From an uncultured Aquitalea sp. (GTDB lineage: Bacteria; Pseudomonadota; Gammaproteobacteria; Burkholderiales; Chromobacteriaceae), in assembly GCF_945957525.1 (NCBI RefSeq), contig NZ_CAMFLA010000003.1, forward strand, positions 62,001-126,000: DNA of 64,000 bases. The letters are read 5' to 3'. Under the pieces are notes generated by a model, which did not search any database, had not been told where the DNA came from, and saw only the letters and a program-made list of their open reading frames with translations. The number at the start of each line of letters is the position of its first letter. The first letter of the stretch is position 1. The position numbers and the translations under genes were made by a program. Shown piece after piece: positions 1,443 through 61,298 of this stretch.

Positions 1443-1470
1443 AGGTTGGCCGAAGCCCTTCGGCCAACCT
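1443..1470. repeat. Perfect hairpin formed by two inverted copies of the repeated word TTGGCCGAA
   Basis: AGGTTGGCCGAA (1443-1454) and its exact reverse complement TTCGGCCAACCT (1459-1470) are separated by a 4-base loop. The stem is 12 bp without mismatch. It lies between the lspA stop and the ispH ribosome-binding site. No T-run follows, so it is not a textbook Rho-independent terminator, but it could slow or end transcription. The same 9-mer occurs 26 further times in the window. Confidence 0.85.
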
Positions 1471-1491
1471 CATCCCAGCAAGGAATACCAG

Positions 1492-2418
1492 ATGACGAAG
1501 ACCATCATGCTCGCCAACCCGCGCGGCTTCTGCGCCGGCGTGGACCGGGCCATCGCCATCGTCGAGCGCGCCATCGAGCTGTACGGCGCGCCGATTTATG
1601 TTCGCCATGAAGTGGTGCACAACCGCTTTGTGGTGGAAGGCCTGCGCGACAAGGGCGCCATCTTCATTGAAGAGCTCAAGGATGTGCCGGCCGGCAGTAC
1701 GCTGGTGTACTCTGCGCACGGCGTGCCGCTGTCGGTGCGCGAAGAAGCCGAAGCGCTTGGCCTGCGCGTGTTTGACGCCACCTGTCCGCTGGTGACCAAG
1801 GTACATGTGGAAGTGAAGCGCATGCACAAGGCGGGCATGGAAATCATCATGATCGGCCACGCAGGCCACCCCGAGGTGGAAGGCACCATGGGTCAGGTGG
1901 AGAGTGGCATGTACCTGGTGGAGAGCGTGGCGGATGTGGCCGGTTTGCAAGTGAACAACCCCGAAGCGCTGTCCTATGTCAGCCAGACCACGTTGTCGGT
2001 GGATGAAACGCGCGACATCATCGAGGCCCTGAAAGCCCGCTTCCCGGCCATCAGCAGCCCGAAGAAGGACGACATCTGTTATGCCACGCAGAACCGCCAG
2101 GATGCCGTGAAGGCCCTGTCCGACCAGTGCGACATCATCGTGGTGGTGGGCTCGCCCAACAGCTCCAACTCCAACCGGCTGCGCGAAGTGGCCGCCCTGC
2201 GCGGCGTGGACGCCTATATGGTGGACAACGCCAGCTTGCTGAAAGCGGAATGGTTCGATGGCAAGAGCCGGGTCGGCGTGACGGCCGGCGCCAGCGCGCC
2301 GGAAGTGCTGGTGCAGGCCGTGATCGAGCAGATTCGGGTTTATGGTGCCCAAAGCGTGGCGGAGCTGGATGGCGTAGAGGAGTCTACCGTCTTCGCCCTG
2401 CCGCCGGCATTGCGCTGA
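1492..2418 (+). CDS. ispH: 4-hydroxy-3-methylbut-2-enyl diphosphate reductase
   Basis: Last enzyme of the MEP isoprenoid pathway: an iron-sulfur enzyme that converts HMBPP to IPP and DMAPP in the cytoplasm. The 308-residue protein has the family's normal length. The three cluster cysteines are visible in GFCAGVDRA (about residue 12), DATCPLVTK (about residue 96) and [10 protein letters not shown] (about residue 195). The substrate-binding [10 protein letters not shown] block follows. The start ATG is preceded by AGCAAGGAAT. Upstream is lspA; the peptidyl-prolyl isomerase often found between the two genes in other Proteobacteria is absent. A strong terminator follows the gene. Confidence 0.97.
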
Positions 2419-2433
2419 TTGTTGCGCCTCCTG

Positions 2434-2472
2434 TTGGCCGAAAGCCCCGCGCAAGCGGGGCTTTTTGTTTTT
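2434..2472 (+). terminator. Rho-independent terminator of ispH, fused to a TTGGCCGAA copy
   Basis: Stem AAAGCCCCGC / GCGGGGCTTT (2441-2463) with a GCAA loop is followed by a T-rich tract. The repeated word TTGGCCGAA (2434-2442) overlaps the first two bases of the stem. Confidence 0.9.
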
Positions 2473-2508
2473 TGTCATGCCGAATGGAACCCATCTTGCG
2501 CACAGGGG

Positions 2509-2536
2509 CTTGAAAAGCAAACGGCCGGCCCTACTT
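2509..2536 (+). promoter_or_regulatory. Candidate sigma-32 (heat-shock) promoter of htpG
   Basis: CTTGAA (2509-2514), 14 bases, then CCCTACTT (2529-2536). This is close to the enterobacterial RpoH consensus CTTGAA-N13/14-CCCCATNT. It lies 35 bases before the htpG start. Confidence 0.65.
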
Positions 2537-2570
2537 TCTGCTCATCGTCACCAACCACTTGTGAAACACC

Positions 2571-4472
2571 ATGAGCGCACAGAAAGAAACCCTGGGCTTT
2601 CAGACCGAAGTCAAACAGCTTCTGCACCTGATGATCCACTCCTTGTACTCCAACAAGGAGATCTTCCTGCGAGAACTCATTTCCAACGCGTCCGACGCCG
2701 CCGACAAGCTGCGGTTTGAAGGCATTGCCCAGCCGGCGTTGTTTGAGGACGACGGCGAGCTGAAAATTCGCATCGCTTTCGACAAGGACGCCCGCACCAT
2801 CACCATCAGCGACAACGGTATCGGCATGTCGCGCGACGAAGTGATCGCCAACATCGGCACCATCGCCAAATCCGGCACCAAGGCTTTCTTCGAGCAGCTG
2901 TCCGGCGACGCGCGCAAGGATGCCAACCTGATCGGCCAGTTCGGCGTGGGTTTCTACTCCGCCTTCATCGTGGCCGACAAGGTCAGCCTGACTACCCGCC
3001 GCGCCGGCGCGGCCCATGACCAGGGCGTGCGCTGGGAATCGCAAGGCGAAGGCGAATACACGCTGGAGCAGGTGGAAAAGGCTGGTCGGGGCACTGACAT
3101 CGTCTTGCACCTGAAAGAGGGCGAGGACGAGCTGCTGAACGACTGGACGCTGAAGCGCATCGTGCGCACCTATTCCGATCACATCTCCATCCCCATCGAG
3201 ATGAAGAAGGGCAGCGGCTACGGTGAAGACGGCGAAGTGGTCGAAAGCGACGAACTGGAAGCCGTCAATGCCGCCTCCGCCTTGTGGACCCGCAGCAAGA
3301 GCGACATCAGCGACGAGCAGTACAAGGAATTCTACAAACACGTCGCCCATGACTTTACTGATCCGCTGGCGTGGAGCCATGCCCGCGTGGAAGGCCGCCA
3401 GGAATACACCGAGTTGCTGTATATCCCGTCCCGCGCGCCGTTCGACATGTGGGATCGCGAGCGCAAGCAAGGCATCAAGTTGTATGTGCGCCGCGTCTTC
3501 ATCATGGAAGACAGCAACAAGCTGATGCCGCAGTACCTGCGTTTTGTGCGCGGGGTGATCGACAGCAACGACCTGCCGCTGAACGTTTCCCGTGAAATCC
3601 TGCAGGAAAGCAAGGATATCGACGCCATCCGCGCCGGTTGCGTGAAGAAGGTGCTGGGCCTGCTGGAAGACTTGGCCAACAACGATCAGGAAAAGTACGC
3701 CGCGTTCTGGAAAGAATTCGGCCAGGTACTGAAAGAGGGCGTGGGCGAGGATTTCGCCAACAAGGACCGCATCGCCAAGCTGCTGCGCTTTGTGTCTACC
3801 GAGTCTGAAGGCGATGAACCGGCGGTGAGCCTGGCCGACTACGTCGGCCGCATGAAGGACGGTCAGGAAAAGATCTACTTCATTACCGCCGATACGCTGG
3901 CTGCCGCGCGCAACAGCCCGCATCTGGAAGTGTTCCGCAAGAAGGGTGTAGAAGTGCTGCTCCTGACCGATCGCGTGGACGAGTGGGTGGCGGGCTCCCT
4001 GACCGAGTTTGACGGCAAGGCGCTGCAATCCGTGGCCAAGGGTGAGCTGGACCTGGGCAAGCTGGAGGACGAAGCCGACAAGGAGGCGCAAAAGCAGGCC
4101 GAGGAAGCCGCCCGTCCGGTTGTGGAGAAGGTGCGGAATGCGCTGGGCGAGCGCGTGAAGGAAGTGCGCGCCACCGCGCGCCTGACCGACAGCCCGGCGT
4201 GCCTAGTGGCCGGCGAGCACGATATGAGCGCTCACCTTGAGCGCATGCTCAAGGCGGCGGGCCAGCCGGTGGAGGGCAGCAAGCCCACGCTGGAGATCAA
4301 TCCGGAGCACGTGCTGGTGCAGCGCCTGGCCAGCGAGGCCGACGAAGCCCGCGCCGCCGATCTGGCGCAAGTGCTGTACGATCAGGCCCTGTTGGCCGAA
4401 GGCGGCAAGCTGGAAGATCCGGCCTCTTTCGTCAAACGCATCAACAAGCTGATGCTGGAGCTGTCGGCCTGA
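2571..4472 (+). CDS. htpG: Molecular chaperone HtpG (bacterial Hsp90)
   Basis: Cytosolic ATP-dependent homodimeric chaperone that helps remodel client proteins together with the DnaK system. The 633 residues match the family. The N-terminal GHKL ATPase domain shows the helix block [11 protein letters not shown] (about residue 40), [10 protein letters not shown] (about 82) and [11 protein letters not shown] (about 123). The middle domain carries [16 protein letters not shown], where the conserved arginine senses ATP. The C-terminal dimerisation domain follows. The ATG at 2571 begins the usual [14 protein letters not shown] start. A sigma-32-like promoter and a downstream terminator make it a single-gene unit. 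One copy of the repeated word lies at 4392. Confidence 0.98.
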
Positions 4473-4498
4473 TCGCCGCCTGATCCCGCGTTACACTG

Positions 4499-4531
4499 AA
4501 ACCGCCTGCGCCGTCGCGCCGGCGGTTTTTC
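4499..4531 (+). terminator. Rho-independent terminator of htpG
   Basis: The GC-rich stem ACCGCC-GCGC / GCGC-GGCGGT has a short loop and is followed by five T residues, directly after the htpG stop codon. Confidence 0.8.
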
Positions 4532-6248: not shown

Positions 6249-6333
6249 GGCGATGGTGTGCTCGGCTTTGGTCATAAAACCGGGCGTGTCGCCACGCCGG
6301 TTCTCACGCTGCTTACTTTAGCGCATGGCAAGG

Positions 6334-6342
6334 TTGGCCGAA
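6334..6342 (+). repeat. Intergenic copy of TTGGCCGAA
   Basis: The copy lies in AAGGTTGGCCGAAAGCCC in the 138-base gap between the SIMPL and GST genes. It shares the AAGG-word-AGCCC context with the copies at 1446 and 2434. Confidence 0.8.
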
Positions 6343-7987: not shown

Positions 7988-8886
7988 CGCGGGGTGCCTC
8001 CCGTACGTTTGCCGAAACGGCTTTTCAGGCGCGGCAGGATAAGCGCCAGGCCGACCAGAACAGCGGTGATGAGATTGAGGTCTTGCGCTTGCAGGCCGAT
8101 GAAGTCGGCGTTGAGCGCCAGCGCGATCAACAGACGGTAGAGCAGCGCGCCCAGCACCGTGGCCAGGGTGATCAGCCACAGGCTGCGCGGCGGCAGCAGG
8201 GTTTCGCCGATGATGACGGCGGCCAGCCCCACAACGATGGTGCCGATGCCCATGGAGATGTCCGCGCCGCCCTGGGTTTGCACGTACAGTGCGCCGGCCA
8301 GCGCGATCAGCCCGTTGGAGAGGGCCATGCCGGCCAGCGTCATGCGGTCGGTGGAAATGCCCTGTGCGCGGGCCATGCGCGGGTTGGCGCCGGTGGCGCG
8401 CAGCGCCAGACCGGCTTCCGAGGAGAGGAATGCATCCAGCAAGAGCTTGGCCGCCACCACAATGACGGCCAGCAACAAGGGCTGGATCAGCCAGCCGTTG
8501 TCGGCCGCTGCGTCAACGAATGGGGCGAACACGGTGGGCATGCCGATCAGCGCCACATTGGGCGCGCCCATGATGCGCAGGTTGATGGAGTACAGCGCAA
8601 TCATCACCAGAATGCTGGCCAGCAATTGCAGGATGCCCAGCCGTACGTTGAGCCAGGCGGTGACCCATCCCGCGCCGGCGCCGGCGCCGGAGGCGATCAG
8701 GCAGGCAAGCCAGGGGTTGTGCCCGCTGACGATCAGCGTGGCGGCCACAGCGCCGCCCAGCGGGAAGCTGCCGTCTGCGGTCAGGTCGGGAAAGTTGAGC
8801 AGGCGGAAGGAAATCAGGACCCCCAGCGCCACCAGCGCGAAGATCAGGCCGATTTCCAGCGCGCCCATCATCGAAATCAGGGACAT
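7984..8886 (-). CDS. ABC transporter permease (COG4120 type)
   Basis: A 300-residue inner-membrane protein with about nine hydrophobic segments. It resembles the branched-chain amino-acid/ribose permease superfamily: LLNFPDLTADGSFPLGGA near the start and GLALRATGANPRMARAQGIS in the cytoplasmic coupling loop. I chose the ATG at 8886 (MSLISMMG) because GAGG lies 6 bases upstream; the open frame extends 30 residues further with no hydrophobic content. It overlaps the ATPase gene by 4 bases. The 194 bases up to the binding-protein gene hold no gene, so the three genes may be one transcript with a leader between the first and second. Confidence 0.92.
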   Translation of the reverse strand: MSLISMMGALEIGLIFALVALGVLISFRLLNFPDLTADGSFPLGGAVAATLIVSGHNPWLACLIASGAGAGAGWVTAWLNVRLGILQLLASILVMIALYSINLRIMGAPNVALIGMPTVFAPFVDAAADNGWLIQPLLLAVIVVAAKLLLDAFLSSEAGLALRATGANPRMARAQGISTDRMTLAGMALSNGLIALAGALYVQTQGGADISMGIGTIVVGLAAVIIGETLLPPRSLWLITLATVLGALLYRLLIALALNADFIGLQAQDLNLITAVLVGLALILPRLKSRFGKRTGGTPR

Positions 8887-12013: not shown

Positions 12014-12910
12014 ATGAGCGAGCTGAAGCAACTGGAAACCTTCGTTGCCGTATTGGGGCTGGGTAGTCTGTCGGCGGCGGCGCGGCAGATGAACGTGGTG
12101 CCGGCCATGGTGGGGCGGCGGCTGGACGCGCTGGAGGAGCGGCTGGGGGTAAAGCTGCTGGTGCGCACCACTCGCAGCGTGACGCCCACGCAGGAAGGCG
12201 CGGCCTTTTATGAGGACTGCCTGCGCATTCTCGGCGAGCTGTCCGAAGCCGAGGCCGCCGTCGCCTCAGGCAGCGGCCGGGCGCGCGGGCATTTGCGGGT
12301 GTCCGCGCCGGCAGGCTTTGGCCGGCGGCATGTGGCGCCGCATATCGCGGCCTATCAGCAGGCTCATCCGGACATCAAGGTGACGCTGGATCTGTCGGAC
12401 CGCCTGATCGATCTGCAGCGCGAGCGCATTGACTGCGCCATCCGCATTTCGGATCTGGCCGATTCCTCGTTGGTGGCGATGCGGCTGGCCGAGAACCGGC
12501 GCGTGGTGGTGGCGTCGCCGGCGTACCTGTCCCGCTGCGGCATTCCGCACACGCTGGAGGACCTAGCGCGCCACAACTGCCTGTCGCTGGGCGAAAGCCA
12601 GAGCCGGGGCTGGAGTTTTACCGTGGACGGCCAGCCGGTAAACCTGCGGGTGGCTGGTCATCAGGAGTGCAATGACGGTGCGGTGCTGCACGACTGGGCC
12701 TTGCAGGGGCTGGGCTTGGCCTGGCGTTCTTTGTGGGAGGTGAAGGATGATCTGTCCGAAGGCCGGCTGGTTACCGTGCTGGATGGGTTTTCGTCGCCGG
12801 ACTATCCGGTGTACGCGGTAGTGCCGCAGCGCCGTTTCATGCCGGCGCGGGTGCGCTATTTCATTGACCATCTTCGGCAAACCTACAATGCGCCGGGGTA
12901 TTGGGACTGA
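12014..12910 (+). CDS. LysR-family transcriptional regulator next to aceB
   Basis: A 298-residue DNA-binding regulator. The N-terminal winged helix-turn-helix is seen as [23 protein letters not shown] (residues about 20-42), followed by the linker helix and VTPTQEG. The two-lobed effector domain begins at [15 protein letters not shown]. It resembles the CrgA/AaeR-like subgroup. Its start lies 145 bases from the divergent aceB start, and the space between is AT-rich with a short inverted repeat (ATGC and GCAT arms at about 11970-11986). Regulation of aceB is a reasonable inference from the divergent layout, not something the sequence proves. Confidence 0.88.
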
Positions 12911-15405: not shown

Positions 15406-17058
15406 ATGCAACAGGACAAACGCAGGGCGGTGGTCTACCAGATCTATCCCAAGAGTTTCAGCAGCCACGCCGGCCGGGCCACTGGCGATCTGGCCGGCGT
15501 GATCGACCGGCTGGATTATCTGGCCTGGCTGGGGGTGGACTATCTGTGGCTGACGCCTTTCTATTGTTCGCCGCAGCGCGACAACGGTTACGACGTCAGC
15601 GATTACTACCGGATTGATCCGGCCTTTGGGGACATGGCGGATTTCGAGCGCCTGTTGGCCGAAGCCGGGCGGCGCGGCATGGGGGTGATGCTGGACATCG
15701 TGGTGAACCACACCTCCACCGAGCACGTCTGGTTCCGCCAGGCGCTGGAGGAGCGAGCCAGCCCTTACCGCGACTACTATCTGTGGCGCGACCGCCCCAA
15801 CAACTGGCAGTCCAAGTTTGGCGGTTCCGCCTGGGAGTACGAGCCGCGCTCCGGCCAGTATTACCTGCATCTGTTCGACAAGACGCAGGCGGATCTGAAC
15901 TGGGACAACCCGGCGCTGCGGCAGGACGTGTACCGCATGATGCGCTTCTGGGCGGACAAGGGCGTGGCGGGGTTTCGCCTGGACGTGATCAACCTCATTT
16001 CCAAGGATCCGGCTTTTTCCGAAGACGACAGCGACGGCCGGCATTTCTATACCGACGGGCCGCGCGTGCATGAGTATCTGCAGGAAATGTATCGCGAGGT
16101 GTTCGCCGGGCGCTCGCTGTTGACCGTGGGCGAGATGTCGTCCACCTCGCTGGCGCACTGCGTGCTTTATTCGCGGCCGGAGCGGCAAGAGCTGTCCATG
16201 ACCTTCAATTTTCACCATCTCAAGGTGGATTACCCGGACGGCGAGAAGTGGCGCGAAGGCAAGCCGGACCTGGTGGCGCTTAAGCGCATCCTTTCAGACT
16301 GGCAGACCGGCATGCACGCCGGTGGCGGCTGGAACGCGTTGTTCTGGTGCAATCACGACCAGCCTCGCGTGGTGTCCCGCTTCGGCGACGACGGTGCTTA
16401 TCGGGTGGCGTCCGCCAAGATGCTGGCCACTGCGCTGCACGGCCTGCAGGGCACGCCTTATATCTATCAGGGCGAAGAAATCGGCATGTGCGACCCGGGT
16501 TTCAAACGCATCGAGGATTATCGCGATGTGGAAAGCCACAACGCTTATCGCCAACTGTTGGCGGAGGGCATGCCGCCCGAGGAAGCGCTGCGCGTGATCG
16601 GTCGCAAATCCCGCGACAACGCCCGCACTCCCATGGCCTGGGATGACGGTCAGCATGGCGGCTTTTCCAGCGCCGAGCCGTGGATAAGCGCTTCGGCCAA
16701 CCTGGCGCAGGTGAATGTGCGCGCGGCGCGGGCCGATCCGGATTCTGTGCTGCATCACTATCGCGCGCTGATCGCCTTGCGCAAGCGACATGCCGTATTT
16801 GCCGATGGCGACTACCGCTGTCTGACGCCGGCGCACCCCAGCCTGTGGGTATACCTGCGCCGCTGCGCTGACGAGTGTCTGCTGGTAATCAGCCAGATGG
16901 CGGGCGAGGAGATCGACTACGCCCTGCCGGCGGACGCGGTGCCGGCAGGTTGGCGCTGGCAATGCCTGCTCGCCAATTACCCGGCGACGGACCATCCGCC
17001 GCCGGTCTGGCGGTTGCGGCCCTGGCATTCGCTGCTGTACCGGCTGACGCCGCCCTGA
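15406..17058 (+). CDS. treC: Trehalose-6-phosphate hydrolase (alpha,alpha-phosphotrehalase)
   Basis: Cytoplasmic glycoside hydrolase family 13 enzyme that splits trehalose-6-phosphate into glucose and glucose-6-phosphate. The 550 residues carry the GH13 regions: DIVVNHTS (region I), GFRLDVINL with the nucleophile Asp (region II), LTVGEMSST with the acid/base Glu (region III) and WCNHDQPR (region IV). The start MQQDKRRAVVYQIYPKSF is standard. Called treA in Bacillus naming. It directly follows treB. Two copies of the repeated word lie inside (15655 and, on the other strand, 16692). Closely related oligo-1,6-glucosidases cannot be excluded by motif alone, but the context decides. Confidence 0.94.
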   Translation: MQQDKRRAVVYQIYPKSFSSHAGRATGDLAGVIDRLDYLAWLGVDYLWLTPFYCSPQRDNGYDVSDYYRIDPAFGDMADFERLLAEAGRRGMGVMLDIVVNHTSTEHVWFRQALEERASPYRDYYLWRDRPNNWQSKFGGSAWEYEPRSGQYYLHLFDKTQADLNWDNPALRQDVYRMMRFWADKGVAGFRLDVINLISKDPAFSEDDSDGRHFYTDGPRVHEYLQEMYREVFAGRSLLTVGEMSSTSLAHCVLYSRPERQELSMTFNFHHLKVDYPDGEKWREGKPDLVALKRILSDWQTGMHAGGGWNALFWCNHDQPRVVSRFGDDGAYRVASAKMLATALHGLQGTPYIYQGEEIGMCDPGFKRIEDYRDVESHNAYRQLLAEGMPPEEALRVIGRKSRDNARTPMAWDDGQHGGFSSAEPWISASANLAQVNVRAARADPDSVLHHYRALIALRKRHAVFADGDYRCLTPAHPSLWVYLRRCADECLLVISQMAGEEIDYALPADAVPAGWRWQCLLANYPATDHPPPVWRLRPWHSLLYRLTPP

Positions 17059-30129: not shown

Positions 30130-30138
30130 TTCGGCCAA
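30130..30138 (-). repeat. Intergenic copy of TTGGCCGAA
   Basis: The minus-strand copy reads AAGGTTGGCCGAAAGCG. The AAGG before the word is shared with several other intergenic copies. Confidence 0.8.
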
Positions 30139-30331
30139 CCTTGGCGCGTGAAGTACCGTGCGCGGGCGGGCTCCGAGGGCTGGTGTTGCGGCTTTGCGCC
30201 AGCGGATAGCGTTGGCAGGCGCACGCTGACAATTGGTTTGATCTGGAACAAATAGCGATTGCACGCTGGGGAGCAGCATTCCGTCCACAAAACATAAGTA
30301 AATTATTATTTTATGGATGAGGATGTGTACG

Positions 30332-33237: not shown

Positions 33238-34344
<1,107 letters not shown>

Positions 34345-44277: not shown

Positions 44278-44286
44278 TTGGCCGAA
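44278..44286 (+). repeat. Intergenic copy of TTGGCCGAA (preceded by C)
   Basis: One of only two copies in the window where the base before the word is C and not G. It lies in the 180-base gap between convergent genes. Confidence 0.75.
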
Positions 44287-47713: not shown

Positions 47714-48661
47714 TCAGGCGACGGGCGCGGGGCAAGGGTGGCGCGTCATCCAGTGACGGGCAATGTCCACCCTTCGGCAAACCCATACCCGGTCGTGTTT
47801 TTCCAGATGGTCGAGAAAGCGTTGCAGGGCAAGGAAGCGGCCGGGCCGTCCCAGCAGGCGGCAATGCATGCCGATGCTCATCATGGCCGGGCGCTCTTCG
47901 CCCTCGGCGTACATCAGGTCGAAGGCGTCGCGCAGGTAGGCGAAGAACTCCTCGCCGTGCGAGAAGCCTTGCGGCAGGGCAAAGCGCATGTCGTTGGTGT
48001 CCAGCGTGTAGGGCACCACCAGATGCGGGGCAAGTTCGCCATCGCGCTTGCGGACCCGGGTCCAGAAGGGCAGGTCGTCGCCGTAGTAGTCCGAGTCGTA
48101 GAGAAAGCCGCCATGTTCCGCCACCAGCCGGCGGGTGTTGGGCGAGTCGCGACCGGTGTACCAGCCCTGCGGCGCGCCGCCGGTGAGTTGCTTGATGACG
48201 GCGACAGCGGTTTCCAGATGCTGACGCTCGGTGGCTTCGTCCATGTTCTGATAGTGAATCCAGCGCCAGCCGTGGCAGGCGATTTCATGCCCCAGCTCCT
48301 GAAAGGCGGCGGTGGCCTCCGGGTGGCGCTGCAAGGCCATGGCCACGCCGAACACCGTCATGGGCAGGCCGCGTTTTTCGAACTCGCGCAGGAAGCGCCA
48401 GACGCCGACGCGCGAGCCATACTCGTACATGCTTTCCATGGACAGATGGCGGGCCGGGTAGCTGGCTGGGTTGAACAGCTCGGACAGGAACTGCTCGCTA
48501 CGGGCATCGCCGTGCAACACGCAGTTTTCGCCGCCTTCCTCGTAGTTGAGGACAAACTGCACCGCCACGCGGGCCTGGCCGGGCCAGTCGGCATGCGGCG
48601 GGCGCGGGCCATAGCCGATCAGGTCGCGCGGGTAGTTGCTGGCTGCTTGGATGTGCGTCAT
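47714..48661 (-). CDS. puuE: Allantoinase of the polysaccharide-deacetylase type
   Basis: Metal-independent allantoinase that opens allantoin to allantoate; it belongs to the NodB/polysaccharide deacetylase fold and is unrelated to the amidohydrolase AllB. The 315 residues start with [18 protein letters not shown], a PuuE hallmark. NYEEGGEN stands where deacetylases have their catalytic aspartates, and [16 protein letters not shown] matches the second motif. [15 protein letters not shown] follows. By family the metal-binding residues are partly lost. It follows uraD by 16 bases. ATG at 48661 follows GGAGAAAGCACGTC. Confidence 0.94.
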
Positions 48662-51065: not shown

Positions 51066-52013
51066 ATGGTCAATCGCAGAGAGGAAGAGCCGCTGGACAG
51101 CTATCTGTTGCGGGTACTGTGTCTGGTGGTCAGCGAGCGCAGCGTATCGCGCGCGGCTTTACGACTCAAACAGTCGCAGCCGGCGGTCAGCGCCGCGTTG
51201 AAGCGCTTGCGGGAGATTCTCGACGACCCGCTGCTGGTGCGGGAAAAAGGCGGCATGGTGCCTACCGAGCGGGCGCTGGTGTTGTACTCCCATGCCAAGA
51301 AAGCGCTGGCGGAAATCGACGACATGGTGCGCGCGCCGGAGGTGTTCGAGCCTGCGGAAAGCCGGCAGACCTTCCGCATCGGCGCACCGGATTATATTGC
51401 GCCGGCCTTTATGGCGGGAGTGACGGCGGCGTTTCAGCGCGCCGCGCCCAGGGCGCGGCTGGTGATCCACTCGCTGGGGCCGCAATTCGACTTTGAAACC
51501 TCGTTGGCCGAAGGCGAGCTGGATGTGGTGATCGGCAACTGGCCGGAGCCGCCGCCGCGCATGCGACTATCCATGCTGATGGAGGACGAGATTGTTTGCC
51601 TGGTGAGCGCGCGCCATCCGTTGGCGGCGCGCGGCCTGACGCTGGAAAGCTACGCCGCGGCCACTCACATCGTGCCCATGCCTTACGCCGTGAATCAGCG
51701 CGGCATGATAGACAGCGTGCTGTCGTCGCTGAAAATCAGCCGGGCGGAGAGCGTTACCGTGCAGTCCTTTGCGTTGGCGCCGTATCTGCTGGAAAACAGC
51801 GACTCCATTTTCACCACCACCCGGCATGTGGCCAGCTTTTACGCCGGCTTGCTGAATCTGGCGGTGTTGAATTCGCCGGTGGATTTTCCGCCGATGCGGT
51901 TTTACCAACTGTGGCATGAGCGCCATCACAAATCACCGTCCCACCGCTGGCTGCGCGGCATTCTCAGCGAATGCGGCCGCCGCCTGCAGCCGGTCGCCGC
52001 CGGTCGGGGGTGA
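51066..52013 (+). CDS. LysR-family regulator divergent from the urate operon
   Basis: A 315-residue regulator. The DNA-binding domain is VSRAALRLKQSQPAVSAAL (residues about 28-46) followed by KRLREILDDPLLVREKGG and VPTERA, a NodD/LysR arrangement. The effector domain starts at RQTFRIGAPDYIAPAFM. Divergent position next to uraH and an inverted repeat between them make control of urate degradation the best guess; the effector might be urate or an intermediate. GAAGGAGG lies 3-8 bases before the ATG at 51066. A palindromic repeat element ends 19 bases before the start and would be in its leader or promoter. Confidence 0.88.
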   Translation: MVNRREEEPLDSYLLRVLCLVVSERSVSRAALRLKQSQPAVSAALKRLREILDDPLLVREKGGMVPTERALVLYSHAKKALAEIDDMVRAPEVFEPAESRQTFRIGAPDYIAPAFMAGVTAAFQRAAPRARLVIHSLGPQFDFETSLAEGELDVVIGNWPEPPPRMRLSMLMEDEIVCLVSARHPLAARGLTLESYAAATHIVPMPYAVNQRGMIDSVLSSLKISRAESVTVQSFALAPYLLENSDSIFTTTRHVASFYAGLLNLAVLNSPVDFPPMRFYQLWHERHHKSPSHRWLRGILSECGRRLQPVAAGRG

Positions 52014-52020
52014 GCGGGCG

Positions 52021-52479
52021 TCAGCGGTAGATGGGCACCAGCACCACCGGTACGTCGGTGCCCATCATCACCTTGTGGGCGACGGAGCCCAGCAGCAGTT
52101 CGCCAAGGGCGCTGTGACGGCGGGAGCCCATGACGATCATGTCGGCCAGCACGTTTTTGGCGGCGTCCAGAATGCAGCGCGATGGATCGCCCTTGATGGC
52201 TTGCACGCTGGCCAGCACCTCGGCAACTGGCATGTCGGGGTTGGCTTCGGCAAACGTCTGTATGCGCTGGCGCAACAGCGCCTCGTCACCCAGATGACCG
52301 CTGGCGGGTTGACCGGCGCTGAAATCCATATAGGGCAGACTGGTGGCGGGCAGGGAAATGGTGATGGCGTGCAGCCGCGCATTGAAGCGGGCGGCCAGTC
52401 CGACGGCGTGGTGAAAGACCGCCGGCGAGCGCGGCGTGAGGTCGGAAGCGTACAGTATGGAATTTATTCCGTAGGACAT
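52021..52479 (-). CDS. Universal stress protein (UspA family)
   Basis: A 152-residue Usp-fold protein. The first strand SILYASDLTPRSPAVFHHAVGLA and the final GSRRHSALGELLLGSVAHKVM (each quoted in part) are typical. In ATP-binding members the loop reads G-x2-G-x9-G-S/T; here the second glycine is arginine (GSRR), so nucleotide binding is not certain. It converges with the LysR gene (7 bases apart). A region with a strong -10 box starts on the other side. Role in stress survival is by family only. Confidence 0.85.
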   Translation of the reverse strand: MSYGINSILYASDLTPRSPAVFHHAVGLAARFNARLHAITISLPATSLPYMDFSAGQPASGHLGDEALLRQRIQTFAEANPDMPVAEVLASVQAIKGDPSRCILDAAKNVLADMIVMGSRRHSALGELLLGSVAHKVMMGTDVPVVLVPIYR

Positions 52480-54999: not shown

Positions 55000-55686
55000 T
55001 CAGTGTTTGCGCAGTGCGGTCTGTTCCGGCGCGCCGCTAAGCGCTTCTTCCCATACATGCTTGGGAATGTGCGATTGCAGGTAATCGCGCGCTTTTTCCA
55101 GCAAGTCCTCATGCAGCGTATGACCGATGAAAGGCTCTACCTCGGCGGTGACATCGCTGCCCAGCCGGATCAGGTGCTCGGCGGCGGCCACGCTGTGCTG
55201 GTAGTGGATCACCGGATCGGCCTTGCCGTGGAACAGGTGCACGGTGGTCTTCGGCAAACGTTGCGCCGGCAGGCTGGCGAAGCGTCCGCTGAAGGCGAGC
55301 ACGCGACCGCTCAGATCCGGATGCGCCGCCGCTGCTTCCAGCGACATGATGGCGCCCTGGCTGAAGCCGATCAGCGCGGTGGCTTCCATGCCCAACCCGC
55401 TGTCCTTTTGCCAGCGGCGCACAGCCTCCACAAAGCGGGGCAGGGCTTCGGCCACGCGGGCCGGGCGGTTTTCATCGGTGACATCGCGCACGGAAAACCA
55501 CTGGTAGCCCATGCCGAGGTCGGACGGGTCCGCGCCGGCCACGCTGACGATGAGCGCTTCCGGGAAGCTCTTGCCCAGATAGGCGGCGACGCCGCTCATG
55601 CTGTCCGGGGTGGAACCCACACCGTGAAAAAGCAGCATCAGTTGTTTGGGCGCGGCGGGTTGTTGCAGGATGAGATCGTGGTGCAT
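55000..55686 (-). CDS. Alpha/beta-hydrolase esterase, YpfH/carboxylesterase type
   Basis: A 228-residue cytosolic serine hydrolase of the phospholipase/carboxylesterase family. The nucleophile elbow is LIGFSQGAIM (GFSQG, Ser about 112), the acid is Asp in LFHGKADPVIHYQ (about 163), and the base His in FIGHTLHEDLLE (about 195). LMLLFHGVGSTPDSM is the oxyanion region. I chose the ATG at 55686 (MHHDLIL), with AAAGG 9 bases upstream. It resembles E. coli YpfH. The physiological ester is unknown. It is divergent from mpl, with 145 bases between. Confidence 0.87.
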   Translation of the reverse strand: MHHDLILQQPAAPKQLMLLFHGVGSTPDSMSGVAAYLGKSFPEALIVSVAGADPSDLGMGYQWFSVRDVTDENRPARVAEALPRFVEAVRRWQKDSGLGMEATALIGFSQGAIMSLEAAAAHPDLSGRVLAFSGRFASLPAQRLPKTTVHLFHGKADPVIHYQHSVAAAEHLIRLGSDVTAEVEPFIGHTLHEDLLEKARDYLQSHIPKHVWEEALSGAPEQTALRKH

Positions 55687-55831: not shown

Positions 55832-57211
55832 ATGCACATTCACATCCTAGGCATCTGCGGTACCTTCATGGGCGGCATCGCCGCCATTGCCAAACAGGCC
55901 GGCCACACGGTTACCGGCTGCGACGCCAACGTTTATCCGCCGATGAGCACTCAGCTGGAGGCCATGGGCATCGAGCTGGTGCAAGGCTTCGGCGAGGAGC
56001 AGCTGTCTCTGGGCGCCGATGTGTATGTGATCGGCAATGTGGTCACGCGCGGCAAGCCGCTGATGGAGGCCATTCTCAATCGCGGCTTGCCTTATGTGTC
56101 CGGTCCGCAGTGGTTGGCCGAAAACGTGCTACGCGACAAATGGGTGCTGGCGGTGGCCGGCACCCACGGCAAGACCACCACCAGCTCTATGCTGGCCTGG
56201 ATTCTGGAAGACGCGGGCCTGGCGCCGGGCTTTCTCATTGGCGGCATCCCGCAAAACTTCGGCGTGTCGGCGCGCTTGCCGGGCGCGCCGCGCCAGGATG
56301 CCGCCAGCGTCAGCCCTTTCTTCGTGATCGAGGCGGACGAGTACGACACCGCTTTCTTCGACAAGCGTTCCAAATTCGTCCATTACCGTCCGCGCACGGC
56401 CATTCTCAATAATCTTGAGTTTGATCATGCGGATATCTTCGCCGATCTGACGGCGATCGAGACGCAATTCCATCATCTAGTGCGCACCATTCCCGGCGAA
56501 GGCCTGATTGTGCGCAATGCGCGCGAAGCCAGTCTTGAACGCGTGCTGGAACGCGGTTGCTGGACGCCGGTGGAGAGTTTTGGCGGCCCGGCAGGCTGGA
56601 GCATGGGCGAAGTGGACGATAACGGACATTTTGATGTGCTGCTGGATGGCGCGACGCAGGGGCGCGTGTGCTGGAACCTGATGGGAGAGCACAATCGCCT
56701 CAACGCGGTGGCCGCCATCGCCGCCGCGCGCCATGTCGGCGTGGCCCCGCAAACGGCCATCGAGGCGCTGTCGCGCTTCGAAAACGTCAAGCGCCGCATG
56801 GAAGTGCGCGGCAAGGCGGCCGGGGTGACGGTGTACGATGACTTCGCCCATCATCCCACCGCGATCGACACCACGCTGGCCGGCTTGCGTCGGCACGTGG
56901 GTGCGAGCCGCATCCTGGCGGTGCTGGAGCCGCGTTCCAACACCATGAAGCTGGGCACCATGAAGAGCGCGCTGGCGGGGTCGTTGACCGAGGCGGACAA
57001 GGTGTACTGCTCGGCGGCGGGTTTGGGCTGGAGCCCGGCCGAGGCGCTGCTGCCGCTGGGCGATAAGGCGGCCACCTTTGATCAACTGGGCAGCCTGATC
57101 GATGCTGTCATCGCCGAGGCGAAGGCGGGCGATCATATTCTGGTGATGAGCAATGGCGGCTTCGGCGGCATTCACCAGAAGCTGCTGGAGAGGTTGGCCG
57201 AAAGGGGCTGA
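55832..57211 (+). CDS. mpl: UDP-N-acetylmuramate:L-Ala-gamma-D-Glu-meso-Dap ligase
   Basis: Recycles cell-wall tripeptide by joining it to UDP-MurNAc. The 459 residues belong to the Mur ligase family. IHILGICGTFMGGIAAIAKQ at the start is typical of Mpl (MurC has a different start). The ATP loop is VAGTHGKTTTSSML (about residue 110). DEYDTAFFDKRSKFVHYRP is an Mpl signature, and VYDDFAHHPTAIDTTL (about 345) is shared with MurC. ATG 55832 is used. A TATAAT box is at 55788-55793 but without a good -35. Two copies of the repeated word lie inside (56114, 57194), the second only 9 bases before the stop. Confidence 0.96.
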   Translation: MHIHILGICGTFMGGIAAIAKQAGHTVTGCDANVYPPMSTQLEAMGIELVQGFGEEQLSLGADVYVIGNVVTRGKPLMEAILNRGLPYVSGPQWLAENVLRDKWVLAVAGTHGKTTTSSMLAWILEDAGLAPGFLIGGIPQNFGVSARLPGAPRQDAASVSPFFVIEADEYDTAFFDKRSKFVHYRPRTAILNNLEFDHADIFADLTAIETQFHHLVRTIPGEGLIVRNAREASLERVLERGCWTPVESFGGPAGWSMGEVDDNGHFDVLLDGATQGRVCWNLMGEHNRLNAVAAIAAARHVGVAPQTAIEALSRFENVKRRMEVRGKAAGVTVYDDFAHHPTAIDTTLAGLRRHVGASRILAVLEPRSNTMKLGTMKSALAGSLTEADKVYCSAAGLGWSPAEALLPLGDKAATFDQLGSLIDAVIAEAKAGDHILVMSNGGFGGIHQKLLERLAERG

Positions 57212-57526: not shown

Positions 57527-58462
57527 TCAGCCTTGACGATGAATGTGGCCGGCGCCGCCGATGCGGGCCAGGCTGAGCGCGCCGGACAGGCGCTCCAGCA
57601 TCGGGTTGGGGGAGTTTTCATCGTCGCGCACCACGCTGATGCCGGCACAGGAGTCCGCCTGCTCTTCCTTGCCCTGATAGACGAAGGTGAGTTGGCGCAG
57701 GGTGAGGATGAGCCGGCGGGCAAGATCGTGCGCGCCGTCCAGGCTGGTGTTGGGCAGCAGGATGACGAAGCTGTCGTCTTCGCGCCGGGCTACCAGATCG
57801 CTGTCGCGGGTGCTTTGCACGCACAGGCTGCCGGCCAGTTGCAACAGATGGCGGCGCGCGGAGCCGTTGTCGTCTTCCGGCACTAGTGCCGGCATGTTCA
57901 GGAGTTGCAGCGAGAGCGCGGCCACCGAGCCGCCATAGCGGCGTATGCGGCCGGTTTCCGCATGTGCCTGTCCCAGCAATTGCGGCATGCCGACCACGCC
58001 GGTCAGTTTGTCCTCGCCTCCGCCCTGTTTTTTCTCTTGCTGGATAGCCTTGTACAGCGTCAGCGACTGCTCCACCAGCTGATGCTCCGCATCCAGCAAC
58101 TGGTTCATCACCATGGTTTCGGTGCGGTCGCTGAAGCTGATCACCAGTGTCGGCATATTGTCCACGCGCACTTCCCTGAGCGACATCTGCACTTCGAACT
58201 TCCGTCCGGTGGCGGTGCGCAAGGCCAGCTTGCGGTTGTACACCATGCTGTTGGCCGCCAGCAGCGTGAGCAGGGCCGGGCCGTCGTCCGGATTGGCAAG
58301 AAAGCCGGCAAAGGATTTGCCCACCATGTCGTCGTGCGGCGTGGCCAGCAGGATGGCCGCGAGCTGGTTGGCCGAAAGAATGGTGCCGCCATCGGGCGTA
58401 GCGAGCAGCAGGGCGCCCTGAACGGTGTCGATAAGCGATTGAAAAGCGTCGATGGTGGACAT
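57527..58462 (-). CDS. PAS domain plus degenerate GGDEF domain protein
   Basis: A 311-residue cytosolic protein. Residues about 5-115 look like a PAS sensor domain (ALLLATPDGGTILSANQLAA and ISFSDRTE at its end). A short helical linker (NQLLDAEHQLVEQSLTLYKA) follows. The second half aligns with diguanylate cyclases (DSDLVARREDDSFVILLPNTS), but the GGDEF motif reads EDDSF, with both glycines lost. It is therefore probably inactive as a cyclase and may act as a sensor or c-di-GMP/GTP-binding scaffold. The next gene on the strand encodes a PilZ-like protein 81 bases upstream. A copy of the repeated word is at 58368. Confidence 0.75.
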   Translation of the reverse strand: MSTIDAFQSLIDTVQGALLLATPDGGTILSANQLAAILLATPHDDMVGKSFAGFLANPDDGPALLTLLAANSMVYNRKLALRTATGRKFEVQMSLREVRVDNMPTLVISFSDRTETMVMNQLLDAEHQLVEQSLTLYKAIQQEKKQGGGEDKLTGVVGMPQLLGQAHAETGRIRRYGGSVAALSLQLLNMPALVPEDDNGSARRHLLQLAGSLCVQSTRDSDLVARREDDSFVILLPNTSLDGAHDLARRLILTLRQLTFVYQGKEEQADSCAGISVVRDDENSPNPMLERLSGALSLARIGGAGHIHRQG

Positions 58463-58543
58463 GGTGTCACCGTAAAAATCGTGCAGGACGGATGTTTCAG
58501 TCTATTCCAGGGCGCAGCCGAATGCACCCGGATCAATGGGGCC

Positions 58544-59053: not shown

Positions 59054-59089
59054 GCCGTCCTCCCTTTCTTGTCGAGTTGGCCTGTGTCC

Positions 59090-59932
59090 TCAGGCAAACA
59101 GGTTGGCGATGCCGTCCAGCCCCATCACATTCACGGCCACGTCGGCCTTGGCCTGTACCACTGGCTTGGCGCGGTAGGCCACGCCGATGCCGGCTTCGGC
59201 CAACATCATCAAGTCGTTGGCGCCGTCGCCCATGGCCAGCACTTGCTCCGGACGCAGGCCGAGCTTCTCGCGCTTTTCGATCAGCAGGCGCTGCTTGGCG
59301 GCGGCGTCGACGATGTCGCCCACCACGCGGCCGGTGAGCTTGCCGTCGATGATTTCCAGCTCGTTGGCGTAAGCATAGTCGAGGCCCAGTTGTGCTTTCA
59401 GCCGTTCGGTGAAATAGGTGAAGCCGCCGGAAACCAGCATGAAGCGCACGCCGGCGGCTTTACTGGCAGCCAGCAGGATTTGCGCGCCGGGGCTCAGTTG
59501 CAGCCTTTCATTGAACACTTTTTCCAGCGCCGAGGCGGGCAGGCCGGCCAGCAAGGCCACCCGTTCGCGCAGCGAGGCGGAAAAGTCCAGTTCGCCGCGC
59601 ATGGAGCGCTCGGTGATGGCGGCTACCTGCGGCTTCAGGCCTTGCATGTCGGCAATCTCGTCGATGCACTCGATGGTGATCAGCGTGGAGTCCATGTCCG
59701 ACACGATCAGCCCGAGATCCGCCATGCGCGGATTGCCCTTGAGAAAGGCAAAGTCGTAATTCAGCGCCTGGCAACAGGCGCGGATGGCGTCGGCGCTGTC
59801 CGGATTGATGTCGCTCAGGCGCGCGGTGTCGAGATTGGGCTGTGTGATGCCGCCGGCGCCGGCCAGTTGGGCGAGTTCGGCCAGTTCCTTGCTGTCGAGG
59901 CGGGGGGACTGGATGACGAGGGTGGTGGTCAT
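59090..59932 (-). CDS. serB: Phosphoserine phosphatase
   Basis: Last step of serine synthesis: dephosphorylates O-phosphoserine. The 280 residues include an N-terminal ACT-like regulatory part (about 1-70) and a HAD domain. The nucleophile motif is VSDMDSTLITIECIDEIAD (DxDST at about 78). Motif II is FMLVSGGFTYF (about 162), motif III K in the RVVGD region, and motif IV AMGDGANDLMMLAEAGIGVA (about 240). GAGGATGACGGC-type purines are weak before ATG 59932. Serine and glycine metabolism recur in this window. A copy of the repeated word lies in motif IV (59195). Confidence 0.96.
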   Translation of the reverse strand: MTTTLVIQSPRLDSKELAELAQLAGAGGITQPNLDTARLSDINPDSADAIRACCQALNYDFAFLKGNPRMADLGLIVSDMDSTLITIECIDEIADMQGLKPQVAAITERSMRGELDFSASLRERVALLAGLPASALEKVFNERLQLSPGAQILLAASKAAGVRFMLVSGGFTYFTERLKAQLGLDYAYANELEIIDGKLTGRVVGDIVDAAAKQRLLIEKREKLGLRPEQVLAMGDGANDLMMLAEAGIGVAYRAKPVVQAKADVAVNVMGLDGIANLFA

Positions 59933-60012
59933 GGGCTGCGGAACGAATGTTGGCTGTCAATCCGCTGATTATGCCACTCACACGCCGTGCGCCGGAATGC
60001 CCGTCGCCGGAT

Positions 60013-60474
60013 TCAGCCTTGCCGGGGAGCGTGCAGCGCCCGCCACAAGCCGCTTAGCGACAGTTGCCCCGGGCCGGCGCAGAACAGCACGGCGATGAGG
60101 ATGGCCCAGTAATAGTGGAACTGGCGGGTAACGTCGGTCAGATCGGGATAGCTGATCACCGCTACGGCGTTGACCACGAACAGACCGGCGGCGGCAAAGC
60201 GACCGGCCAGGCCCAGCGCCAGCAAAGAGGAAAGCACGGTCTCGCCAAAGGTGCCCATCAGGGCGGCCAGCGCGGGCGGCAGCAAGGGCACGTGGTATTC
60301 GTCGGTGAACAATTGCACCGTGGTGTCCCAATCGTCCAGCTTGGTGAGGCCGGATTTGAAAAACACGTTGAAGATCCACAGGCGGATCAGCAGCAACAGC
60401 AGCGGTTGCAGCAGGCCGGCGGCCTTGTCCAGCAGCCGGTTCAGGGCGGCGGCTTGTGCGGCGAGAGCATTCAT
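60013..60474 (-). CDS. DoxX family membrane protein of the copper-peptide operon
   Basis: A 153-residue inner-membrane protein with four hydrophobic segments. RLWIFNVFFKSGLTKLDDWDTTVQLF (quoted for identification in two parts: RLWIFNVFFKSGLTKL and DDWDTTVQLF) is the DoxX hallmark near the first segment; HYYWAILIAVLFCAGPGQLSL is the last. DoxX proteins accompany DUF692/DUF2063 genes in HvfABCD-type operons (HvfD); the role is unclear, perhaps electron transfer or export. AAGGAGA lies 6 bases before ATG 60474. It is 77 bases after the DUF2063 gene and last in the operon. Confidence 0.85.
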   Translation of the reverse strand: MNALAAQAAALNRLLDKAAGLLQPLLLLLIRLWIFNVFFKSGLTKLDDWDTTVQLFTDEYHVPLLPPALAALMGTFGETVLSSLLALGLAGRFAAAGLFVVNAVAVISYPDLTDVTRQFHYYWAILIAVLFCAGPGQLSLSGLWRALHAPRQG

Positions 60475-60551
60475 GGCGGTTCTCCTTCGGGCAAGCCGCG
60501 CCCCTCCGCGGCGACGCGGATGACGGGCAGGCCGGTGTTGTTGAGTGTGGC

Positions 60552-61298
60552 TTACAGGCTGTGACTGACGGGCAGCCCCAGCTGGAACAGGGTGAGCAAG
60601 GCGGACTGCAAATCCAGATGTTCTTCGGCCAACATCGCGGCAGCGGCGGCTTCGCCCAGCGGCTGGCCAGCCAGCAGCGCGGCAAGCAGGGCGGCGAAAC
60701 CCGGCGAGCAGACATCCACTTTCACTACGCCCTGCTGGCGATGCACCAGTGCGCATTCCCCGCCAGCGCCAAGGTCAACGCGCAATGCCGCGCCGGGCTG
60801 ATGTCCTTGCCAGATGGCGACTACCGGCCAGCGGGAGGCGATGACGGCGCAGGAGGGCGCAAAGCCGAAGCACAAGTCGTCGTAGTCTTCCGGCGCAACG
60901 CCGGCCAGCGCGACGGCAGGCAAGGGCTGCGCGTCGGCAGCGTAATAACTGCGGTGGACCGCCCATTCCACTCGGGCCACATCGCCCAGATAGGGCAGCT
61001 CGGCGGCCGGCGGGAAGGCATCAATGAAGTCGCCGAACTGTCCGCCGTAGACGTGCAGGTTGCCGGAGAGGGAGGGAACCTGCTTGCTGTATTCGCGCGC
61101 GAGGCCCTTGAAGAAGTCCTCGCCGACGATCTGCCCCAGCACCGGGTAGAACAGCGCCAGCGACTCCATCAGCCCGACGCGGTAGTTGTTGCGATATACC
61201 GCCAGCCCGGCGGGGTTCAGCGCCGGCAGGTCGGCCGGTTGCTCCTGGCGGGCGATCAGTTCCAGCAGCCGGGCTTGCCAGTCGAGTTCTTCACGCAT
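60552..61298 (-). CDS. DUF2063 (HvfC/BufC-type) RiPP recognition partner
   Basis: A 248-residue protein. Residues about 30-90 hold the DUF2063 domain (GLAVYRNNYRVGLMESLALFYPVLGQIVGEDFF, seen as AVYRNNYRVGLMESL and FYPVLGQIVGEDFF), once called a putative DNA-binding domain. Structural and genetic work on HvfC/BufC proteins shows they pair with the MNIO enzyme and help bind the precursor. The C-terminal half is specific to the family (DLQSALLTLFQLGLPVS). It overlaps the MNIO gene by 8 bases, so both are made together. A copy of the repeated word is at 60624. Confidence 0.88.
   Translation of the reverse strand: MREELDWQARLLELIARQEQPADLPALNPAGLAVYRNNYRVGLMESLALFYPVLGQIVGEDFFKGLAREYSKQVPSLSGNLHVYGGQFGDFIDAFPPAAELPYLGDVARVEWAVHRSYYAADAQPLPAVALAGVAPEDYDDLCFGFAPSCAVIASRWPVVAIWQGHQPGAALRVDLGAGGECALVHRQQGVVKVDVCSPGFAALLAALLAGQPLGEAAAAAMLAEEHLDLQSALLTLFQLGLPVSHSL

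Follow-up and report, generated by a model that had tools for sequence, protein, structure and literature searches.

A candidate DNA uptake sequence with a CCG core in an uncultured Aquitalea sp. and its sister words in the Chromobacteriaceae

Word copies in the window

The window, i.e. the whole 64,000-nt stretch of DNA analysed here, contains 28 copies of the nine-base word TTGGCCGAA against 0.9 expected (100 dinucleotide shuffles; mean 0.91, maximum 4). The initial annotation had listed these copies and argued that base composition predicts fewer than one; the shuffles bear this out, and each coordinate and strand was correct on our recount. As had also been described, 26 of the 28 extend to the ten-base word GTTGGCCGAA with a leading G. 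The reading classes given earlier were reproduced with our own simple gene calls, which define the genic and intergenic assignments: 17 copies are in frame as Leu-Ala-Glu, 4 are antisense (x-Ser-Ala-Asn frame), 1 is in the Val-Gly-Arg frame and 6 lie between genes.

The Leu-Ala-Glu copies, on the plus strand unless marked (-), are located in htpG (4391..4400), in kbl for glycine C-acetyltransferase (35897..35906), twice in glyS (41132..41141 and 41891..41900, the latter site also present in Pseudogulbenkiania), and in sense orientation at 15654..15663, 17260..17269, 18292..18301, 21426..21435 (-), 25134..25143, 25500..25509, 37816..37825 (the same site in JH1-16), 51503..51512, 56113..56122, 57193..57202 (near the gene end), 59195..59204 (-) and 60624..60633 (-). 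The seventeenth, at 20214..20222, is the 9-mer only, with C in front. The Val-Gly-Arg copy is a sense copy at 21872..21881 (-). Antisense copies are found at 16692..16701 (-) in gene 15406-17058, at 33990..33999 (-) in gene 33340-34344, which we take to be hemB-like, at 40220..40229 (-) in glyS, and at 58367..58376 (+) in gene 57527-58462. The intergenic copies are at 1445..1454 (+), 1459..1468 (-), 2433..2442 (+), 6333..6342 (+), 30130..30139 (-) and 44278..44286 (+), the last being again the 9-mer with C in front. The longer 12-mer AGGTTGGCCGAA is formed at 1443, in the first of these, and likewise by the copies at 1459, 6333, 16692, 30130, 33990 and 57193.

The copies at 1445 and 1459 are the left and right arms of an intergenic hairpin, a 12-bp perfect stem of -21.4 kcal/mol, in agreement with the pair noted before. 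The accompanying remark that uptake words often occur as hairpins holds weakly here. An 810-kb sample of the genome holds 384 words, which form 7 close pairs of neighbours (<60 bases) where chance predicts 10.9, so close pairs are not in excess. All 7 have a spacing of 19 bases or less, and 6 are convergent. Hairpins are thus a minor feature of the word.

A second form, GTTTGCCGAA, was missed by the initial annotation and has nine copies in the window. Those at 1043..1052 (+, gene 927-1430), 23645..23654 (-, isocitrate lyase gene; the same ten bases occur in Aquitalea G052), 39819..39828 (+), 47773..47782 (-), 52246..52255 (-), 55250..55259 (-) and 63547..63556 (-) are in sense orientation, and those at 8007..8016 (+, gene 7984-8886) and 12873..12882 (-, gene 12014-12910) are antisense.

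Abundance, exactness and reading frames in the genome

The excess extends to the whole genome, where GTTGGCCGAA occurs 1368 times versus 21 for the reversed control (~65x), with 670 and 698 copies on the two strands, and GTTTGCCGAA 616 times versus 8. In the 810-kb sample, 262 copies of GTTGGCCGAA were counted versus 7.1 expected. The word is also exact: among 30 one-base variants, the change to T at +4 is the only one strongly enriched (122 versus 7.7 expected), followed by C at +3 (25 versus 6.6) and C at +5 (9 versus 2.2), while T at +7, which would create a CTG core, is found 4 times in the genome versus 2.9 expected. The full-length word is approximately AGGTTGGCCGAAG, and conservation fades within ~3 bases on each side, leaving no longer conserved unit. 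Methylases can target long exact words, and mobile elements can end in them. Nevertheless, a role of the word in restriction-modification or methylation, or as part of a mobile repeat, seems very improbable, considering the rapidly fading flanks and the non-palindromic word, and restriction sites in genomes are usually avoided rather than enriched.

To what extent the word reflects protein sequence can be judged from its reading frames. Of 281 sampled copies, 140 are in the Leu-Ala-Glu frame, which would fit a peptide, codon or other protein-level cause; 62 lie between genes or at their edges, 64 are antisense and 15 are in other sense frames, so that about half lie outside that frame. Codon choice is likewise far over expectation: Leu-Ala-Glu is spelled TTGGCCGAA in 141 of 328 cases (15.0 expected) and Phe-Ala-Glu is spelled TTTGCCGAA in 58 of 92 (8.7 expected), and the antisense x-Ser-Ala-Asn, Val-Gly-Arg and antisense Phe-Gly-Gln frames have 43, 13 and 21 copies versus 1.35, 0.3 and 5.9 expected. 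Moreover, Aquitalea is wordless although it is nearly as rich in Leu-Ala-Glu (190 versus 104 expected; 328 versus 164 in the genome under study). The protein-level explanation is refuted by the frames, and we give it practically no credence.

The word might also serve in replication or segregation, like Chi or KOPS, and be read directionally along the chromosome arms; the initial annotation had named such motifs as an alternative. The density of the main word, ~1 per 3 kb, is within the range for Chi. With the leading strand inferred from GC skew, however, the leading-strand excess that such a motif entails was looked for and not seen, as the leading:lagging counts are 31:31 for intergenic and 28:36 for antisense copies; sense copies (93:62) track gene length (385:284 kb). 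We therefore regard this reading as highly unlikely. The word, occurring on both strands, in five gene frames and between genes, with no replichore skew and with codon spelling far over expectation, is a DNA-level signal.

Its distribution also depends on the origin of the DNA. A 31-kb stretch that carries Mu-type genes (a Mu-like prophage) and a 12.8-kb low-GC island have no word, and two further stretches above 9 kb (L206 and L211) are word-free. In DNA of 60-65% GC the word density is 0.54 per kb, while the 40 kb below 55% GC hold 3 words. Such scarcity in recently acquired DNA is expected of a DUS/ComP system of the Neisseriaceae type.

Sister words in related genomes

The five Aquitalea placed together with this genome form its sister group. 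Conservation in relatives, proposed earlier as a check, takes the form of sister words in sister genera: 23 of 61 Chromobacteriaceae genomes carry a dialect, namely GTTGGCCGAA in 8, GTTGGCCGCA in 13, which are all 13 genomes of the genus Vogesella, and GTTGGCCGAG in 2 (the Crenobacter luteus group). Every dialect has hundreds to thousands of copies per word-bearing genome, and outside the family, counts of this order were not found in any of 386 genomes sampled. As a positive control, the same search recovered the known Neisseria word and words fitting the other published Neisseriaceae dialects. The word is nearly absent from the nine other genomes with the same genus code; this and the genus-wise change of the word are not what one would expect of a motif essential to repair or segregation, further arguing against Chi or KOPS.

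At the site 33990..33999, all six aligned word-bearing relatives have the dialect of their own genus, and at 40220..40229 in glyS, GTTGGCCGCA is found in 3 of 8 Vogesella-group loci. In a larger sample, word sites are seldom shared (2 of 55 with Aquitalea and 0 of 12 with Vogesella).

All three dialects have CCG at +6 to +8. The +10 base is A in the present genome and Vogesella and G in the Crenobacter luteus group, and the Vogesella word has C at +9. We compared them with the Neisseriaceae dialects AT-DUS, AG-DUS, AG-simDUS, AG-kingDUS, AA-king3DUS, eikDUS, mucDUS and wadDUS. Both sets share a length of 10 to 12 bases, more than 1000 copies, both strands, genic and intergenic positions, some inverted pairs and clade-wise dialects. 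Like AG-DUS, our word begins with AG and ends with GAA; aligned ungapped by eye, AGGTTGGCCGAA agrees with AG-simDUS at 9 of 12 positions and with AG-DUS, its letters taken from the DUSvar1 primer, at 8 of 12. The USS of Pasteurellaceae, likewise a short word that marks self DNA and is enriched in the genome, works alike, although its sequence is unrelated to ours. According to PMC4906244, Pasteurellaceae have no ComP homologue. The initial annotation had considered the word different from known DUS dialects, and the difference indeed lies in the core: in PMC3630211, CTG is present in all eight Neisseriaceae dialects and is reported as conserved and essential, whereas the Chromobacteriaceae words have CCG. 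The same paper reports that simDUS and kingDUS, which differ by one base, occur side by side in Simonsiella muelleri. Our genome resembles this in having two forms one base apart; unlike the nearly equal +3 forms of S. muelleri, it varies at +4 (G or T), with 1368 and 616 copies.

The ComP orthologue and the proposed uptake system

A ComP-like DUS-binding minor pilin, suggested earlier for comparison, was found outside the window (G000:C9:75150-75599). Searched against the PDB, this protein has as best matches the three ComP entries 2M3K, 5HZ7 and 2NBA (E 2.8e-10 to 3.9e-10; next 5.4e-5), and a control pilin of the same genome has 23 matches at E up to 0.01 and no ComP among them. Neisseria bergeri ComP, compared with 17 translated prepilins of the genome, ranks it first (9.9e-22 versus 9.7e-12). 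A stretch that it shares with ComP reads 'GRYTDTSTRWPRLP' against 'GRFKQTSTKWPSLP'. Pfam PF16732 matches as well and was not counted as ComP evidence since it is too broad. ComEC and DprA are both over their cut-offs; across 11 genomes, both have matches in all, and 10 exceed the ComEC cut-off, G094 falling below it with ComEC in two pieces.

The family proteins deviate from Neisseria ComP. The C76-C125 cysteine pair has no aligned counterpart in 40 aligned family ComPs; only the C-terminal pair aligns, and hence there is no DD region with two disulfides. R78, K94 and K108, the basic residues named for ComP in PMC12061091, read V, R and E here (our numbering). These features, the 18 prepilin sites in the genome (E up to 1) and the ComP-like matches in the wordless Aquitalea, Chromobacterium and Paludibacterium groups, which show that a genome with the receptor need not have the word, would suit an uptake sequence read by a receptor other than the ComP orthologue. 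On the other hand, four genomes of genus g3, with no match to this ComP better than 7.8e-8, also lack all three words, and word-bearing and wordless genomes differ in residues at positions that correspond to known DNA contacts. The motif N-[TAV]-D-x-[GD], defined post hoc and by eye among species that are not independent, occurs in 19 of the 20 ComPs aligned from genomes with a word and in none of the 20 from genomes without one. The word-bearing exception is G094, and 3 of 7 Chromobacterium ComPs have N-x-D with no glycine after it. It aligns to the beta1-beta2 loop, which together with the DD region forms the main DNA contact of N. subflava ComP according to PMC4906244. Residues in loops matching the ComP DNA contacts thus appear to differ between word-bearing and wordless genomes, and a different receptor seems unlikely, if less so than the other alternatives. 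Word-bearing proteins are not a single clade in the ComP tree.

The words might also be a relic of past ComP-driven uptake in a lineage now non-competent or non-selective. Two word-bearing genomes have thinner counts (579 in G085 and 183 in G096), as if decaying. In the present genome, however, the word has kept its exactness, with most one-base variants near expectation and no cloud of decayed copies, and the reading frames of ComP, ComEC and DprA are intact. We consider a relic improbable.

Taken together, we conclude that, very probably, GTTGGCCGAA is the DNA uptake sequence of this bacterium, GTTTGCCGAA is accepted beside it as a second form, and a ComP-type minor pilin reads the word. As first proposed, it stays a candidate, now very well supported by the genome-wide count, the lack of skew, the mixed frames, the sister words and the ComP orthologue, yet short of proven. 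Three of the four outcomes that the initial annotation had named as refuting it, namely a count near expectation, strong replichore skew and Leu-Ala-Glu copies only, were checked and did not occur. In the proposed mechanism, the minor pilin would be exposed on the type IV pilus and bind the word in free DNA, pilus retraction would draw word-bearing DNA in, and ComEC and DprA would take it on to recombination. DNA of kin would be favoured, and repeated uptake could both build up the number of words and keep them exact. In the sister genera, i.e. in Vogesella and the Crenobacter luteus group, the core would be the same and the ending different.

Our best reading is a second branch of DUS/ComP self-DNA uptake, with a CCG core and a ComP lacking the second disulfide. 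PMC3630211 dates the origin of DUS after the split from C. violaceum, in which it found no ComP; our genome belongs to the Chromobacteriaceae. It seems somewhat more probable to us than the opposite that ComP self-uptake is older and wider than the Neisseriaceae, and that in the Chromobacteriaceae branch, with its CCG word and one-disulfide ComP, there were at least two changes of ending (to CA in Vogesella and to AG in the Crenobacter luteus group), a second +4 form came to be tolerated in the present genome, and the system was lost in Chromobacterium, Paludibacterium and the other Aquitalea with changes in the DNA-contact loops of ComP.

If so, sequence-selective transformation would extend from the Neisseriaceae to a mostly environmental family, and the CCG core would break the sole core rule held universal for DUS. 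Dozens of natural ComP/word pairs, with three dialects and wordless controls, make how ComP reads its word directly testable. In practice, these bacteria should be easier to transform with the right word added.

Occurrence of the word and its signal at the DNA level

The initial annotation had listed 28 copies of the 9-base word TTGGCCGAA in the window as a candidate DNA uptake sequence (DUS) of a new dialect. All 28 positions are correct, against 0.91 copies expected from shuffles; G precedes 26 of the 28, and the frames and genes to which the copies had been assigned agree with our own. In the whole draft of the host, an uncultured Aquitalea sp. (4,045,770 bases, 35 contigs, the window being positions 62001-126000 of contig 3), the 10-mer with G in front, GTTGGCCGAA, occurs in 670 + 698 copies, compared with 9 + 12 for the reversed control. 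Among all 30 one-base changes of GTTGGCCGAA in this genome, T at position +4 is strongly enriched (122 vs 7.7 expected), the next most enriched being C at +3 (25 vs 6.6) and C at +5 (9 vs 2.2). Because of this enrichment, GTTTGCCGAA, with 616 genome copies against 8 in the control, is a second form of the word.

We used an 810-kb sample of the host genome comprising the window and 746 kb from 38 further stretches. Of the 281 copies of the 9-mer in it, 140 lie in the sense Leu-Ala-Glu frame, 15 in other sense frames, 64 antisense and 62 between genes or at edges. In a codon test conditioned on the peptide, Leu-Ala-Glu is spelled as the word in 141 of 328 cases, nine-fold above the expected 15.0. 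For the antisense Ser-Ala-Asn frame (43 vs 1.35) and the Val-Gly-Arg frame (13 vs 0.3) the excess reaches some thirty-fold or higher, and it is weaker for antisense Phe-Gly-Gln (21 vs 5.9). The reading frames and the codon test rule out a peptide effect as the cause of the word. Intergenic copies of TTGGCCGAA in the sample prefer A (0.69), G (0.73) and G (0.85) on the 5' side and G (0.79) on the 3' side, and the complete word is therefore near AGGTTGGCCGAAG.

A replichore motif was likewise rejected. With the leading strand of each stretch inferred from GC skew, copies whose direction is not imposed by genes are split about evenly between the leading and the lagging strand (intergenic 31:31, antisense 28:36). 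An apparent plus-strand run at 228-330 kb of contig 1 is best explained by an incomplete one-strand listing; both strands carry copies there. Frequent hairpins are also ruled out, because close pairs are not above chance in the 810-kb sample (7 at 60 bases or less vs 10.9 expected), 6 of these 7 being convergent.

Some stretches of the host genome lack the word. We scanned ten proteins from word-free stretches against Pfam and six were assigned a family. The first, 31 kb long (contig 3, about 174855-206000; stretches L202 and L203), has Mu-type genes for portal, tail and baseplate proteins and is a Mu-like prophage. The second, 12.8 kb at 49% GC, is the end of contig 1 (340001-352812; L136), encoding a reverse transcriptase, a NERD-domain/AAA protein and two large proteins without a Pfam match, and is possibly a defence island. 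A further 14.9 kb of 51.7% GC without words is located on contig 2, about 81334-96188 (L211).

Dialects in the family and the order

De novo word counts on 80-102 kb per relative yielded two further words, GTTGGCCGCA for Vogesella and GTTGGCCGAG for genus g4, which holds Crenobacter luteus and one more genome. As positive controls, the same method retrieved GCCGTCTGAA in Neisseria bergeri, and its words in N. wadsworthii and Eikenella fit published dialects. Chromobacterium and Paludibacterium, each represented by 100 kb of a single genome, gave no comparable word, and Aquitalea gave none either, both in these counts and in 500 kb of one genome (G052) where a hidden dialect was sought; Chitinibacteraceae, Aquaspirillum and Laribacter gave no word in short loci, a weak result from only 12 to 66 kb per group.

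In a survey of 61 Chromobacteriaceae genomes, GTTGGCCGAA is present in 183 to 2168 copies in eight: the host, two of genus g5, one each of g6 and g8, and three of Pseudogulbenkiania (g9). GTTGGCCGCA reaches 1871 to 2895 copies in all 13 Vogesella genomes (g10) and GTTGGCCGAG 1590 and 1940 copies in both genomes of g4, and in the remaining 38 genomes none of the three words exceeds 92 copies. Genera were matched to names (g10 to Vogesella, g9 to Pseudogulbenkiania, g4 to Crenobacter luteus and one more), and genome G086 to JH1-16, because named genomes gave the same counts. Two Paludibacterium genomes, G089 and G092, have a mild excess of dialect words over control, and other Aquitalea carry slightly more GTTTGCCGAA than controls (25 to 66 copies vs 4 to 22). 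Two genomes, G085 and G096, have GTTGGCCGAA counts of 579 and 183, far below their congeners, along with 165 and 55 copies of GTTGGCCGAG, perhaps owing to decay or to a partial dialect mix with GTTGGCCGAG. Position +1 is looser in g4, strain JH1-16 and g6, with C there in 21 vs 1.8, 10 vs 1.1 and 10 vs 0.9 expected copies, respectively.

Across the order, we surveyed 399 sampled genomes with GTTGGCCGMR, which covers four endings together. Of these genomes, 386 lie outside the family and none of them exceeds about 225 copies; where counts are sizeable they are at most about five times control, as read by eye. Among the matches listed from open-licence PubMed Central literature on uptake sequences in Vogesella, Chromobacteriaceae and Chromobacterium and on natural transformation in Vogesella, there is no report of these words, nor is there a match for the letters GTTGGCCG as an uptake sequence; among the titles listed for the word itself, none concerns uptake.

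A candidate receptor

The Neisseria DUS receptor is the minor pilin ComP. Prepilin sites number 18 in the host genome at E up to 1, and 17 were translated. N. bergeri ComP, recognised by agreement with the stretch of PDB 2M3K, ranks the pilin encoded at contig 9, 75150-75599, near two other prepilin genes, first among the 17 (9.9e-22; next 9.7e-12). In a PDB search the best hits of this orthologue are the three ComP structures (E 2.8e-10 to 3.9e-10; next 5.4e-5), which also top the hits of Pseudogulbenkiania ComP, and a PilE-like pilin of the host, taken as control, had no ComP among 23 hits with E up to 0.01. Pfam PF16732 (ComP_DUS) was dismissed as proof of ComP, since three other host pilins match it more strongly than the orthologue; annotation based on this model will over-call DUS receptors. 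NCBIfam has no ComP model matching the host, Pseudogulbenkiania or N. bergeri protein.

A ComP match with E below 1e-11 was found in 56 of the 61 family genomes; the five without one, namely G090 and every one of the four g3 genomes, are wordless. Section 7 of PMC3630211 states that no ComP was found by BLAST in C. violaceum; the matches in these family genomes would go against this. In the ComP tree the host protein groups with Aquitalea (80/84), as expected under vertical descent. The branches are long on both sides, and the proteins of word-bearing genomes form no single clade.

Two motifs, picked by eye after the groups were known, accompany the word. The loop aligned with beta1-beta2 reads N-[TAV]-D-x-[GD] in 19 of the 20 ComPs that come from genomes with the word and in none of the 20 that come from genomes lacking it. 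K or R directly follows the aromatic residue several places before the WP motif in 19 of 20 (the host has T) and 0 of 20, respectively. These counts are not independent, as they represent roughly seven lineages with the word and three without. According to PMC4906244, N. subflava ComP contacts DNA through the DD region, the beta1-beta2 loop and part of the alpha1-beta1 loop. Two ComP-like genes stand in tandem in G094 of genus g8 (contig 3, 1518663-1519630; a draft of 80% completeness and 7% contamination), the second being the sole word-bearing ComP without the loop motif.

Host placement and history of the word

GlyS encoded in the window shares 86-88% identity with that of five Aquitalea records and is sister to them in a GlyS tree (support of 100/100 for the union and of 98/95 for the rest). 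Nine further genomes in the survey of 61 have the same genus code as the host. These results place the host as an Aquitalea-like organism within Chromobacteriaceae. In the same tree (L029, L025, L020, L026), a MAG labelled Pseudogulbenkiania falls with Paludibacterium, 'Xenophilus sp. AP218F' falls with Chromobacterium, and two Crenobacter species are placed apart.

The proteomes bear dialect-specific marks. In the host, Phe-Ala-Glu (91 vs 51 expected) and Ser-Ala-Asn (73 vs 43) are raised and Val-Gly-Arg is without excess (85 vs 85); in Vogesella, Leu-Ala-Ala (426 vs 240) and Ala-Ala-Asn (147 vs 58) are raised and Ser-Ala-Asn is not (13 vs 27). Near glyS, two of the six host coding sites with a Vogesella orthologue are switched-dialect sites, namely glyS codon 46 and codon 217 of gene 33340-34344, the latter carrying TTCGGCCAAC in the host, Pseudogulbenkiania and JH1-16, TGCGGCCAAC in 4/4 Vogesella, and neither in any of three Chromobacterium (0/3). 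As a general pattern, dialect switching at shared sites was ruled out by a larger Vogesella sample, with 0 of 12 sites shared.

With Aquitalea, 2 of 55 host word sites are shared. We found no convincing relics there: host word sites diverge more than controls (mean 3.44 vs 2.42 mismatches), and the Aquitalea proteome has no excess of Phe-Ala-Glu (25 vs 31) or Ser-Ala-Asn (23 vs 27). This lack of relic marks speaks against a recent loss of the word in Aquitalea.

We suppose that pilus-borne ComP attaches to the word, that pilus retraction imports word-bearing DNA and that ComEC and DprA would finish transformation, and that such biased uptake would then spread and polish the word. That seven lineages have an identical eight-base core argues for a single origin, and either comP transfer or losses in Chromobacterium, Paludibacterium and other Aquitalea would be compatible with the pattern. 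Each of the 11 genomes examined, including those without the word, gave matches to ComEC and DprA. Because the wordless genera retain ComEC, DprA and mostly ComP, they may be competent without selectivity.
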